Positions 1,533 to 6,471 of a DNA stretch of 21,803 bases are shown here, piece by piece; positions within the stretch are counted from its first letter, which is position 1, and each line of letters opens with the position of its first letter. This stretch comes from a virus: the IMG/VR virus record IMGVR_UViG_3300032820_000144, positions 1-21,803 of that record; one strand, written 5' to 3'. Position numbers and translations under genes: made by a program. Below the pieces are notes generated by a model. The model saw only the letters and a program-made list of their open reading frames with translations. It ran no database searches and had not been told where the DNA came from.

Positions 1533-1555
1533 TAAACTAGTAGGACATAGTATTG

Positions 1556-2188
1556 ATGATATCATTACGTGAGACGCTGACTTTCGACCAAGCTAAGATA
1601 GTCGTTGAAACGAAGGAAGAAAATAACGGGAAGTCCTTATACATGAAGGGCATTTGCATTCAAGGTGGTGTGAAAAACGCTAACCAAAGATTGTACCCTG
1701 TAAGTGAAATCCATCGGGCTGTCAGTACACTTAACGACCAAATCGAGGGCGGTTATTCAGTGTTAGGCGAAGTGGATCATCCAGAAGGTCTTACTATTAA
1801 TTTGGATCGTGTTAGTCACATGGTTAATTCTATGTGGATGGACGGACCTAATGGTTACGGAAAATTAAAAGTATTACCAACGCCGATGGGACAACTAGTA
1901 AAAACAATGCTTGAAAGCGGAGTTAAATTAGGAGTTTCATCGCGTGGTAGTGGTAACGTAAAAGAAGACGGCATGGGACCTTATGGTTCAGGTGAAGTAA
2001 ATGACTTTGAAATTATCACAGTTGATATCGTAGCTCAACCAAGTGCTCCGGGAGCCTATCCAACTCCCATTTATGAGCATTTGTTAAATTCAAAAGGTGG
2101 ATATAAGGCTTTAAATTTGGCAAGAGATAATGAGGCACAGAATTACTTAAAGGATAACTTGATTAATATAATCAACAAACTCCAATAA
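1556..2188 (+). CDS. 21: Prohead core protease gp21
   Basis: This is the T4 gp21-type maturation protease of the prohead, which cleaves scaffold and capsid proteins before DNA packaging. Its 210 residues match the usual length. The family signatures are clear: GEVDHPEGLTINLDRVSHMV with the catalytic His at about residue 75, GVSSRGSG with the catalytic Ser at 128/129, and VDIVAQPSAPGA downstream. The ATG at 1556 is preferred over the TTG immediately before it, with AGGA about ten bases upstream. It follows the acidic core gene by 23 bases and precedes gp22 by 20, giving the canonical order core-21-22-23. Its likely substrates are the three neighbouring gene products. Confidence 0.93.
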   Translation: MISLRETLTFDQAKIVVETKEENNGKSLYMKGICIQGGVKNANQRLYPVSEIHRAVSTLNDQIEGGYSVLGEVDHPEGLTINLDRVSHMVNSMWMDGPNGYGKLKVLPTPMGQLVKTMLESGVKLGVSSRGSGNVKEDGMGPYGSGEVNDFEIITVDIVAQPSAPGAYPTPIYEHLLNSKGGYKALNLARDNEAQNYLKDNLINIINKLQ

Positions 2189-3316: not shown

Positions 3317-4480
3317 ATGTCAGAACTAACAGAAACTCGCTGGCAGGATACAAAGAGTGCGTTACTAGAAGGCCTATCAGGCAATAAAAAGTCTGTAATG
3401 GAAGCAACTTTAGAAAATACTAGAAAGTATTTGTCTGAGGCGGCTACAGCTGGAGCAACTTCGGCTGGTAACGTAGCAACTTTAAATAGAGTGATCCTAC
3501 CGGTGATAAGACGGGTTATGCCGACTGTAATAGCTAACGAATTGGTTGGAGTTCAACCAATGACTGGCCCAGTTGGACAAATCCACACACTAAGAGTGAG
3601 ATATGCTGATACAACAACAGGTGGTAGCACAACTACTACTGCTGGTGAAGAAGCACTATCTCCGTTTAAGATAGCAGAAGCTTATTCTGGAGCAAATCCA
3701 TCTAATGCGGCATCAACAGCCACTTTAGAAGGTACTGCAGGTAACAGGCTATCAATTCAAATCTTGAAACAGGTTGTAGAAGCCAAAACTAGAAAACTAT
3801 CAGCTAGATGGACTTTTGAATCTGCTCAAGATGCTCAAGCACAACAAGGCGTTGACGTTGAAGCGGAAATCATGGCGGCATTAGCACAAGAAATTACTGC
3901 TGAAATCGACCAAGAAGTAATAGGTTCTCTAAGAACTTTAGCTCCAACTGAAGAAGCGTACAATCAAGCATCTGTATCAGGAACTGCTACATTTGTTGGT
4001 GATGAACACGCCGCTTTAGCTGTGTTAATTAACAGAGTAGCAAATAAAATAGCTCAACGTACAAGACGTGGTGCTGGTAACTGGACTGTTGTAAGTCCAC
4101 AAGCACTTACAGTACTTCAATCAGCAACAACTTCAGCGTTCGCAAGAACAACTGAAGGAACTTTTGAAGCGCCAACTAACCAAAAATTAGTAGGAACTTT
4201 GAATGGCTCGATGAAGGTGTACGCTGACACATACGCGGCTGACGATACGGCTGTATTAGTAGGATATAAAGGCTCATCTGAAGCAGATGCCGCCGCTTTC
4301 TACTGCCCATACATTCCGTTAATGTCTTCAGGCGTTGTACTTGATCCAGGTACTTTCGAACCAGTTGTATCTTTTATGACTAGATACGGCTACGTAGAAT
4401 TGTCAAACACTGCATCTTCACTAGGAAATGCGGCTGACTACTTGGGTGAAATCTCTGTAACAGGAGTTACATTCCAATAA
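3317..4480 (+). CDS. 23: Major capsid protein gp23
   Basis: This is the T4-type (HK97-fold) major capsid protein, 387 residues against 521 in T4, a short form like those of marine relatives. The family core is unmistakable: LNRVILPVIRRVMPTVIANE followed by LVGVQPMTGPVGQIHTLRVR at residues ~56-97, then the region of WTFESAQDAQAQQGVDVEAE and the C-terminal VSFMTRYGYVELSN. A gp21 cleavage site of the T4 type (Leu/Ile-x-Glu) is available at YLSE, residues 38-41, which would release a 41-residue N-terminal propeptide; this is inference. An AAAAGGAG ribosome binding site lies ahead of the ATG. A strong terminator follows at 4509-4537 and closes the head operon. No gp24-like vertex gene follows in this window. 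Confidence 0.96.
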   Translation: MSELTETRWQDTKSALLEGLSGNKKSVMEATLENTRKYLSEAATAGATSAGNVATLNRVILPVIRRVMPTVIANELVGVQPMTGPVGQIHTLRVRYADTTTGGSTTTTAGEEALSPFKIAEAYSGANPSNAASTATLEGTAGNRLSIQILKQVVEAKTRKLSARWTFESAQDAQAQQGVDVEAEIMAALAQEITAEIDQEVIGSLRTLAPTEEAYNQASVSGTATFVGDEHAALAVLINRVANKIAQRTRRGAGNWTVVSPQALTVLQSATTSAFARTTEGTFEAPTNQKLVGTLNGSMKVYADTYAADDTAVLVGYKGSSEADAAAFYCPYIPLMSSGVVLDPGTFEPVVSFMTRYGYVELSNTASSLGNAADYLGEISVTGVTFQ

Positions 4481-4537: not shown

Positions 4538-4708
4538 CATGACTTCTTCATCAATTTCTAACATAGTTTTATACTAACATAATATTTTTATCCATTAATT
4601 GCGGCATCTGTCAAAAATATAGTAGTTTTACTTCTAAAACTCTATACCTAAATAATGTCACGTTCCCAAGTTTTGGGAAAGTACTTTAAACGAAAAGGGA
4701 GGTCCATT
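4538..4708 (+). promoter_or_regulatory. Intergenic stretch with putative late promoter (4648-4654) and leader hairpin (4663-4679)
   Basis: Bases 4538-4640 are AT-rich with nothing recognised. CTAAATA at 4648-4654 resembles the phage late promoter and is followed at the expected transcript start by a perfect 7-bp hairpin, TTCCCAA-GTT-TTGGGAA (4663-4679). A strong ribosome binding site, GGGAGG at 4698-4703, then lies six bases before the ATG at 4709. The hairpin would sit at or near the 5' end of the mRNA and may protect it. Confidence 0.5.
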
Positions 4709-4942
4709 ATGGATATTCTTAATAAAGTTAAAGGATGGGCAAAAGCATTAACCGATTTAGGCATAAGTTTACTTGCCATGGGAATCGTTTTTGAAATCCT
4801 ATTCAACGGTCAAGGTATTCCGTTCTGGCCACACATTTCTGTGATAGGAAATGTTCAGGGCGTATTGCAAGGTTTTTCAGATCAAGGTCTGATGGGCTTG
4901 GTAGCAATATGGGTACTATATCATATCTTCAACAAGAAATAA
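4709..4942 (+). CDS. Small two-helix membrane protein
   Basis: This 77-residue protein starts MDILNKVKGWAKALTDLG. The ATG at 4709 is chosen over the in-frame ATG at 4655 because GGGAGG lies six bases ahead of it and because the first ATG overlaps the putative late promoter. Two hydrophobic segments (about residues 16-33 and 58-74) are separated by a short, Gly- and Pro-containing loop (GQGIPFWPHISVIGNVQG). The C-terminus is basic (FNKK). Size and topology are compatible with a holin or a virion membrane-interacting protein, but no specific family is recognised. It is expressed from its own late promoter between the gp23 terminator and the sigma-70-driven HemB unit. Function is unknown. Confidence 0.75.
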   Translation: MDILNKVKGWAKALTDLGISLLAMGIVFEILFNGQGIPFWPHISVIGNVQGVLQGFSDQGLMGLVAIWVLYHIFNKK

Positions 4943-5350: not shown

Positions 5351-6160
5351 ATGGAATTAATCCAGCCCATCTTTGTCAACCAATCTGGTGAAACATATGA
5401 GGCTGGGTTAGGTCCAGACAATTCAAGTTATAGTCTTAAAGACATTAATAACAAAATTCAACAAGATATAAACGAAGGTGGAGAATCTTTTTTACTATTC
5501 GTAGTCCCAAATAAAAAAACAAAAAATCCTGATTGGAAATTTAATGGTGAAGTAGTATCTCAAATTAAATCTAAATTTGGAAGTAAAGTAGAATTGTTTA
5601 CAGATATTTGTTTATGTTCTACAATGACAGATGGTCATTGTTGTGTAATAGATAATCCTAAAAAGACAGAAGAATTATTACAAAATCTTGCAAGTGTTTA
5701 TTATAAAGCAGGTGCAGATTCTTTAGCCCCTTCTGATATGCAACCAAATACAGTTAAAAATATTAAACAAGAATTCCCTAAAGCTCACGTAACAAGTTAT
5801 TCCACAAAATTTCGTAGTTCATTTTATAAAGGATTTAGACAAATTGCTGACAGTTCACCTAGTTCAAAAAGATTTTATCAATTAGATGTATCAAATGCAG
5901 GAGCGGCCATTCAAAGTTCTATAAAATATGATAAAGACGGAGCAGATTTTTTAATGGTTAAGCCAGCAATGACATCATTGGATTTAATTGACAAAATAAA
6001 AATGGCTACACATAAGCCAGTAGGTGCATTTCAAGTATCTGGAGAGTATCTTGGACTAGCTGATGACGATCAATTGCTAGAAACCTATAAAGTGATGAAA
6101 AGAGCCGAAATTGACTTTTTAATCTCATATGGTGCTAGAAAACTACTAAAACTGCTATAA
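5351..6160 (+). CDS. hemB: Phage-encoded porphobilinogen synthase (delta-aminolevulinate dehydratase), short form
   Basis: HemB condenses two 5-aminolevulinate molecules to porphobilinogen, the first common step to heme, cobalamin and chlorophyll. The 269-residue product carries the family motifs in order: DICLCSTMTDGHC with the zinc-ligand cysteines C87, C89 and C97; AGADSLAPSDM (120-130); SYSTKF with Schiff-base Lys K153; FR (R163); KRFYQ (R174, Q177); GADFLMVKPA with the second catalytic Lys K204; QVSGEY (S230); and a C-terminal RAEIDFLISYGA (Y260). Typical enzymes have ~320-340 residues. This one begins at the first core strand (LIQPIFV), so it lacks the N-terminal arm that ties subunits into octamers, and it is shortened after APSDM. 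It starts six bases after the lipoprotein stop, has no clear ribosome binding site, and is probably translated by coupling. Family assignment is firm; activity is inferred. Confidence 0.92.
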   Translation: MELIQPIFVNQSGETYEAGLGPDNSSYSLKDINNKIQQDINEGGESFLLFVVPNKKTKNPDWKFNGEVVSQIKSKFGSKVELFTDICLCSTMTDGHCCVIDNPKKTEELLQNLASVYYKAGADSLAPSDMQPNTVKNIKQEFPKAHVTSYSTKFRSSFYKGFRQIADSSPSSKRFYQLDVSNAGAAIQSSIKYDKDGADFLMVKPAMTSLDLIDKIKMATHKPVGAFQVSGEYLGLADDDQLLETYKVMKRAEIDFLISYGARKLLKLL

Positions 6161-6186
6161 TATTTTTATTGCTAGTAAATATTTGT

Positions 6187-6471
6187 ATGATACAAGAAAT
6201 TGAAACAGAAGAACTATACAATCAGTATACAGAATACAGAAACAGACTAAATGTTTGGAAGAAAAACCATGGTTTGTTTATCAATGATATTATAAAATTA
6301 GAGAAGCACTTAGACAAATTATTAAATGAAAGACTAGATCATTTAATAATGTTAAGGCAAACTAAAAGACAAATGTACCAAGAACGTGCTGATCAAAAAT
6401 TAATAGAAGCAATCAAATCCTTAAAATATTTCAGTAAAATAGAACTATTAGCCTCCCTTTCAAAGAACTAA
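6187..6471 (+). CDS. Small helical protein of unknown function
   Basis: The protein is 94 residues from the ATG at 6187; an in-frame TTG at 6169 would add six residues. It is rich in Lys, Glu, Leu and Asn with no Pro, and reads as two long amphipathic helices (IKLEKHLDKLLNERLDHLIM, then KRQMYQERADQKLIEAIKSL), probably a coiled coil. No family is recognised. It follows hemB by 26 bases with no ribosome binding site, and AGTAAATA at 6174-6181 could be a weak late promoter or chance. It most likely belongs to the same unit as the lipoprotein and hemB. Confidence 0.6.
   Translation: MIQEIETEELYNQYTEYRNRLNVWKKNHGLFINDIIKLEKHLDKLLNERLDHLIMLRQTKRQMYQERADQKLIEAIKSLKYFSKIELLASLSKN

Follow-up and report, generated by a model that had tools for sequence, protein, structure and literature searches.

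The window analysed here is an entire virus record of 21,803 bases (IMGVR_UViG_3300032820_000144), in which a hemB gene is carried together with phage structural genes. The features of the locus on which the following analysis draws are listed below by position and strand.

1553–2188, plus strand: prohead core protease gp21 (Peptidase_S77, PF03420, 7.9e-26; phrog_207, 1.5e-57)
3317–4480, plus strand: major capsid protein gp23 (PF07068, 5e-98), which marks the locus as phage
4655–4942, plus strand: orf95, predicted to be a small membrane protein, lying between gp23 and the cassette, with 78–79% identity in L211–L220
5119–5146, plus strand: sigma70-like promoter TTGACT-N16-TATAAT with an internal ACCAAAA, 6 bp 5' of the lipoprotein start codon
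5153–5344, plus strand: putative lipoprotein of 63 aa, with a signal peptide and LTAC lipobox recognised by eye, ending 6 nt 5' of hemB
5351–6160, plus strand: hemB, a porphobilinogen synthase (ALAD) homologue of 269 aa with no N-terminal arm and a zinc-type cysteine triad
6169–6471, plus strand: orf100, the third gene of the lip-hemB-orf100 cassette, with only a weak match to phrog_29039

Baseplate and tail-fibre genes lie downstream of the cassette and gp21 and gp23 upstream of it, so that hemB does stand among structural genes, as the original prediction had it. In relatives of the locus, the lipoprotein gene beside hemB is kept in many cases at 39–97% identity, and orf100 is found immediately 3' of hemB at 36–78% identity. 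At the 5' end of the window, a partial ORF (positions 2–352) has matches in phage families whose label is sialyltransferase or unknown, and relatives likewise keep it 5' of their head genes. The local gene order around hemB was recovered from viral metagenomes in tens of independent contigs, which does not fit the assembly artefact from host DNA that the prediction had named as its possible refutation.

The description of the phage as T4-like was broadly right, with the correction that the gp23 of the window is closest to those of the jumbo myophages PA5oct (287 kb), Vibrio phage 2.275.O (349 kb) and Sinorhizobium phage Phosso (469 kb), at 68–70% identity. One further gp23 relative, with 80% identity, lies on a 374-kb contig, and the source is therefore probably a large (jumbo) T4-like phage, of which the window is only a fragment. 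The nearest large relative (IMGVR_UViG_3300022227_000002, L245–L247) carries genes for ribosomal protein L7/L12, ClpP, IMPDH, GTP cyclohydrolase I and PTPS.

The promoter pattern with its internal ACCAAAA occurs once in the window, compared with a shuffle mean of 0.02, and the plain sigma70 pattern without ACCAAAA also matches just this site, compared with 0.33 expected; the expectations come from simple two-base block shuffles and a pattern with flexible spacing, and the promoter scan gave 11/12 matches. The motif precedes the lipoprotein gene or hemB in many relatives of the gp23 locus despite divergence of the surrounding sequence. Conservation of this sigma70-like promoter suggests that the cassette is expressed by the host sigma70 polymerase, separately from the late structural genes; it is from the motif, too, that we infer the timing of expression.

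HemB is porphobilinogen synthase (PBGS), which catalyses the second shared step in making heme, the conversion of two molecules of 5-aminolevulinate (5-ALA) into porphobilinogen. The hemB ORF of the window opens with ATG and runs without an internal stop. That it is a true ALAD/HemB homologue, as originally predicted, is borne out by the Pfam ALAD profile (PF00490, E = 2.4e-56, 191.6 bits with a gathering score of 24.6) and by a search of PDB sequences in which every match was ALAD (best 1b4e, 1.6e-31). Against the NCBIfam equivalog NF006762 (PRK09283) the protein scores 175.8 bits, which is under the cut-off of 297, and the PHROG profile search gave no match for it. Structure prediction agrees with the assignment: the AlphaFold2 model, for which 31 relatives were used, has a mean pLDDT of 96.3 and a pTM of 0.93, and ALAD entries account for 50/50 among the Foldseek PDB matches listed, with a best TMq of 0.93. 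The predicted fold is the TIM barrel of ALAD.

The residues singled out in the original prediction (C87, C89, C97, K153, R163, R174, K204, S230 and Y260) are all found in the window HemB, and none of them varies within the phage family. Alignment with E. coli HemB equates the zinc triad C87/C89/C97 with C120/C122/C130, the Schiff-base lysines K153 and K204 with K195 and K247, and R163, S230 and Y260 with R205, S273 and Y312. We compared 51 distinct full phage HemB, taken from 130 loci, many of them overlapping on shared contigs. Thirteen catalytic and zinc positions (D118, C120, C122, C130, S165, K195, R205, Q220, K247, Q271, S273, E275 and Y312 in E. coli numbers) are unchanged in every one of these proteins, while identity to the window HemB drops to 47%. 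These positions include the cysteine triad that defines the zinc-dependent PBGS subgroup, both Schiff-base lysines, S273 and Y312 of the P-site, and R205 and Q220 of the A-site. Throughout both 5-ALA sites, all tested residues except R216 are invariant or conservatively replaced.

The exception qualifies one of the predicted contacts. R174 aligns to E. coli position 217, one residue off the lid arginine at 216; Arg occupies position 217 in 51/51 phage proteins and position 216 in 0/51. The active-site lid of phage HemB is 1–2 residues shorter, and the shifted arginine may therefore still reach the substrate. Further changes are the replacement of the MMDGR motif of cellular HemB by MQPNT in the window protein, a deletion C-terminal to QVSGEY in the same protein, and the substitution of QVSDEY for QVSGEY in about half of the phage members. 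Over 113 pairs of phage HemB, dN/dS has a median of 0.15 and a maximum of 0.28. With its core residues in place, no stops and a low dN/dS, the gene is not decaying, as had been proposed; judged from the alignments, the catalytic core of the window HemB is intact and under purifying selection.

In cellular HemB, about 28 residues at the N-terminus form an arm that wraps around the adjacent subunit. This N-terminal arm is absent from 51/51 phage proteins, which begin at the barrel. In the alignment, the first residue of the window HemB matches E. coli residue 29–30, and the frame 5' of its ATG holds two stops. A Pfam match that extended upstream across two TAA codons was judged spurious. In one subclade, whose usual start is not an ATG, the closest upstream start codons give about 9–11 extra residues. 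The phage proteins also have Glu in 0/51 cases in the column of the allosteric magnesium glutamate, E232, which we take to be the Mg-binding glutamate of E. coli HemB. In the cellular enzyme, the hinge between arm and barrel sets the octamer or the hexamer, and secure closure of the lid requires the octamer (Jaffe review, PMC7729013); the HemB of Rhodobacter capsulatus is a hexamer and highly active (PMC535902). As this hinge decides between octamer and hexamer, an armless HemB should, by analogy, escape octamer/hexamer control or else be weak.

HemB had been presented as lying outside the usual set of phage tetrapyrrole genes, and in this respect the picture has to be revised from an isolated oddity to a widespread phage gene. 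IMG/VR scans with phage HemB alignments returned 35 and then 154 matching viral contigs; the best 80 of the 154 were kept, all with at least 47% identity. The phage HemB clade is present in at least 80 IMG/VR contigs, with 47–58% identity to the window protein. Two gp23 relatives, L104 and L162, have HemB at the matching place with 54% and 49% identity, and hemB is found in 1/39 surveyed gp23 relatives having at least 3 kb downstream, which makes it an accessory gene. A host-type metabolic enzyme encoded among phage genes and with such an accessory distribution, the window hemB has the defining traits of an auxiliary metabolic gene. A further genomic position for hemB is seen in L350/L371 (IMGVR_UViG_3300021089_000029): the region is syntenic with G014, and the phage-clade hemB has as a near neighbour the counterpart (74% identity) of an 888-aa G014 protein that is probably the DNA polymerase B of G014.

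An IMG/VR scan with the window HemB alone gave no match, and one with a mixed alignment gave five contigs only (L092–L096), the peptide patterns in both cases being unsuited to the phage clade. For these five contigs, host DNA or an unrelated capture is the probable source of hemB, and the three that were placed in the tree (L092, L094 and L095) group with bacterial HemB. HemB matches from INPHARED were rejected as probable host contamination, one lying in a clearly bacterial neighbourhood and the others on unannotated assembly nodes.

The trees place phage HemB in a single clade (100/99), on a long stem of 0.75–1.1 changes per site and separate from the sampled cellular HemB. The nearest cellular sequence found is the HemB of Leptospira, with 38–41% identity, which is sister to the phage clade in one midpoint-rooted tree and adjacent to it in the other. 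Because the branches are long on both sides, this placement is uncertain and Leptospira is a candidate donor at most. Donor searches covered the phyla to which three genomes belong, namely a Spirochaetes genome (198 genomes searched), G005 (379) and, in calibrated form, a Bacteroidia genome (247), and they gave nothing clearly closer. Within the phage clade, the first 40 codons of the window hemB (5351–5470) share 90% DNA identity with L211:1131–1250 and the remainder 47–78%, while the flanking genes of the L211 group are 76–97% identical to those of the window (lipoprotein 94–97% and gp23 91–92% at the protein level). This pattern points to a recombination junction within hemB and to a mosaic history of the gene.

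Relatives of the window gene occur in heme operons of other phages. The order hemF-hemC-hemE-hemB is found on contigs L321, L324, L336–L338, L344, L347 and L348; in L321 the Pfam E-values are 3e-80 for hemF, 6e-64 for hemC, 1e-62 for hemE and 3e-51 for hemB, and the hemC/hemE and hemE/hemB junctions are ATGA overlaps. Beside this operon lies an ORF resembling orf95 by eye (L321:444–713, minus strand). One contig with the four-gene order, G849, also encodes members of the ribonucleotide reductase and phage head maturation protease families. A shorter hemF-hemB arrangement is present on L266/L317, and on a 48-kb contig pyrF, hemF, hemB and heme oxygenase touch or overlap, together with genes for a UvsX-like recombinase, a DnaB-like helicase and peptide deformylase. 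Contigs L267–L275 carry hemE and hemF, plus hemC where the contig allows, adjoining T4 gp46/gp47-, topoisomerase- and UvsW-like genes recognised by eye; phage-clade hemB was not detected on the stretch examined. An IscA/ErpA-like ORF (by eye) is found near hemE-hemF-hemC in L273 and L274. An IscU-like ORF, likewise recognised by eye, lies 3' of stand-alone phage hemB in L300:3375–3761, L312:4080–4466 and L353:7816–8202, and this neighbour may hint at iron handling.

The large gp23-type contigs G014, G015, G016 and G853 have none of hemC, hemE and hemF, and no further heme gene was seen in gp23-type phages on contigs, which are fragments, of up to 134 kb. Nor was hemD seen alongside phage hemB, hemC, hemE and hemF. 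A single clade holds the HemB of the operons together with that of the gp23 phages, and in it operon and stand-alone forms share one side of a 100/97 branch. Since hemB of the same clade stands in operons with hemF, hemC, hemE or heme oxygenase, tetrapyrrole synthesis is the best reading of its role. These operons are, at the level of gene content, the strongest evidence for it, and they largely support the original proposal that the phage assists heme or other tetrapyrrole synthesis.

Compared with the zinc-type enzymes of E. coli and human (PF00490), phage HemB has the same TIM barrel, two Schiff-base lysines, three zinc cysteines, P-site Ser/Tyr and R205, with about 31–36% identity to E. 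coli HemB. Unlike them, it has no N-terminal arm, a shorter lid with the arginine shifted by one, no MDGR motif and no allosteric magnesium glutamate; Leptospira HemB, too, differs from it in having the arm and the MMDGR motif. The HemB step may draw on host 5-ALA, as originally proposed; some other phages encode their own 5-ALA synthase, sometimes beside heme oxygenase, and the viral enzyme of aquatic phages (valaS) was shown to be active (PMC11480375, 2024). Like phage HemB, valaS is the product of a phage tetrapyrrole gene and makes the HemB substrate, but it is a different enzyme. The same paper mentions further heme and B12 genes in phages in general terms; HemB, HemF and coproporphyrinogen are absent from its main text, and HemB likewise from some cited phage papers. 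The cyanophage and pelagiphage genes ho1, pebS and pcyA/pcyX and the ferrochelatase of pelagiphage Mosig, which is annotated with heme oxygenase and bilin reductase as well, function at the end of heme synthesis or beyond it, whereas HemB acts near its start. Phage tetrapyrrole genes as such are therefore already known; for phage HemB or an operon of the hemF-hemC-hemE-hemB type we found no published report in titles and abstracts, subscription papers being mostly outside the search.

Overall, we consider it highly probable, on sequence grounds, that the window hemB encodes an active porphobilinogen synthase and serves the phage as an auxiliary metabolic gene. Homology, fold, the invariant site, purifying selection, phage location, the promoter and the hem operons of relatives all count in favour of activity, as does, by analogy, the precedent of the active viral 5-ALA synthase (PMC11480375). 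Counted against it are the missing arm, given that lid closure in the cellular enzyme depends on the octamer (PMC7729013), the one-position shift of R216 in a shortened lid, the NF006762 score, and the lack of other heme genes on the gp23-type fragments. Loss of the arm in all members, the register shift at R216 and the loss of MMDGR and of the Mg-site glutamate would also suit a protein that kept the Schiff-base pocket and changed its role, either as a binder of 5-ALA or host HemB (an inhibitor or decoy) or as the catalyst of another aldol-type condensation, and the long stem branch and the QVSDEY variant are in line with such a change. We regard this as unlikely: a decoy would have no need of zinc cysteines, yet the triad is invariant in the 51 proteins, the tested 5-ALA-site residues other than R216 are preserved with it, and the operon partners hemC, hemE and hemF encode enzymes of the same pathway. 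Far less credible still is the notion of host DNA joined by assembly error, or of a recently transferred and decaying host gene. The contamination apparent in several INPHARED matches shows that such cases occur, but the recurring phage-specific gene order, the monophyly of the phage clade far from every sampled cellular HemB, the low dN/dS and the absence of stops all speak against it.

An active enzyme could serve a non-heme tetrapyrrole (bilins, siroheme or B12), or chiefly iron handling, and not cytochrome heme. HemB stands upstream of all tetrapyrroles, heme oxygenase adjoins hemB in one relative, and the annotated gene set of Mosig fits the same idea; hemE and hemF, however, act after the siroheme/B12 branch point, on the protoheme/chlorophyll branch, and we give this possibility a minority share only. 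For the preferred reading, an active phage porphobilinogen synthase, we propose that host sigma70 RNA polymerase would transcribe the cassette independently of the late structural genes, and that its HemB would condense two 5-ALA into porphobilinogen. Although armless, the enzyme would function, and it would thereby be free of the octamer/hexamer and magnesium control that cellular HemB is under; the supply of porphobilinogen to heme or other tetrapyrroles could be kept up for respiration during the shutdown of host gene expression. A more far-reaching version, to which we give slightly less than even chances, is a T4-like phage lineage with its own route from 5-ALA to protoporphyrinogen (hemB, hemC, hemE and hemF), an early-type promoter in the late region of the gp23 group, and a HemB that would be always on because the armless enzyme could not form the regulated octamer.

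Taken together, the occurrence in related phages of hemB alone or with up to three more heme genes suggests that these viruses run part of the host heme pathway during infection. Known phage tetrapyrrole genes belong mainly to the end of the pathway (heme oxygenase and bilin reductases) or to its first committed step (5-ALA synthase). If our reading is true, a widespread phage HemB and the hemF-hemC-hemE-hemB operons would represent a viral takeover of the core of heme synthesis, beyond its ends. With the arm lost from all phage copies, the family would also provide a natural experiment on the octamer/hexamer switch, showing whether activity itself or just its control depends on it.
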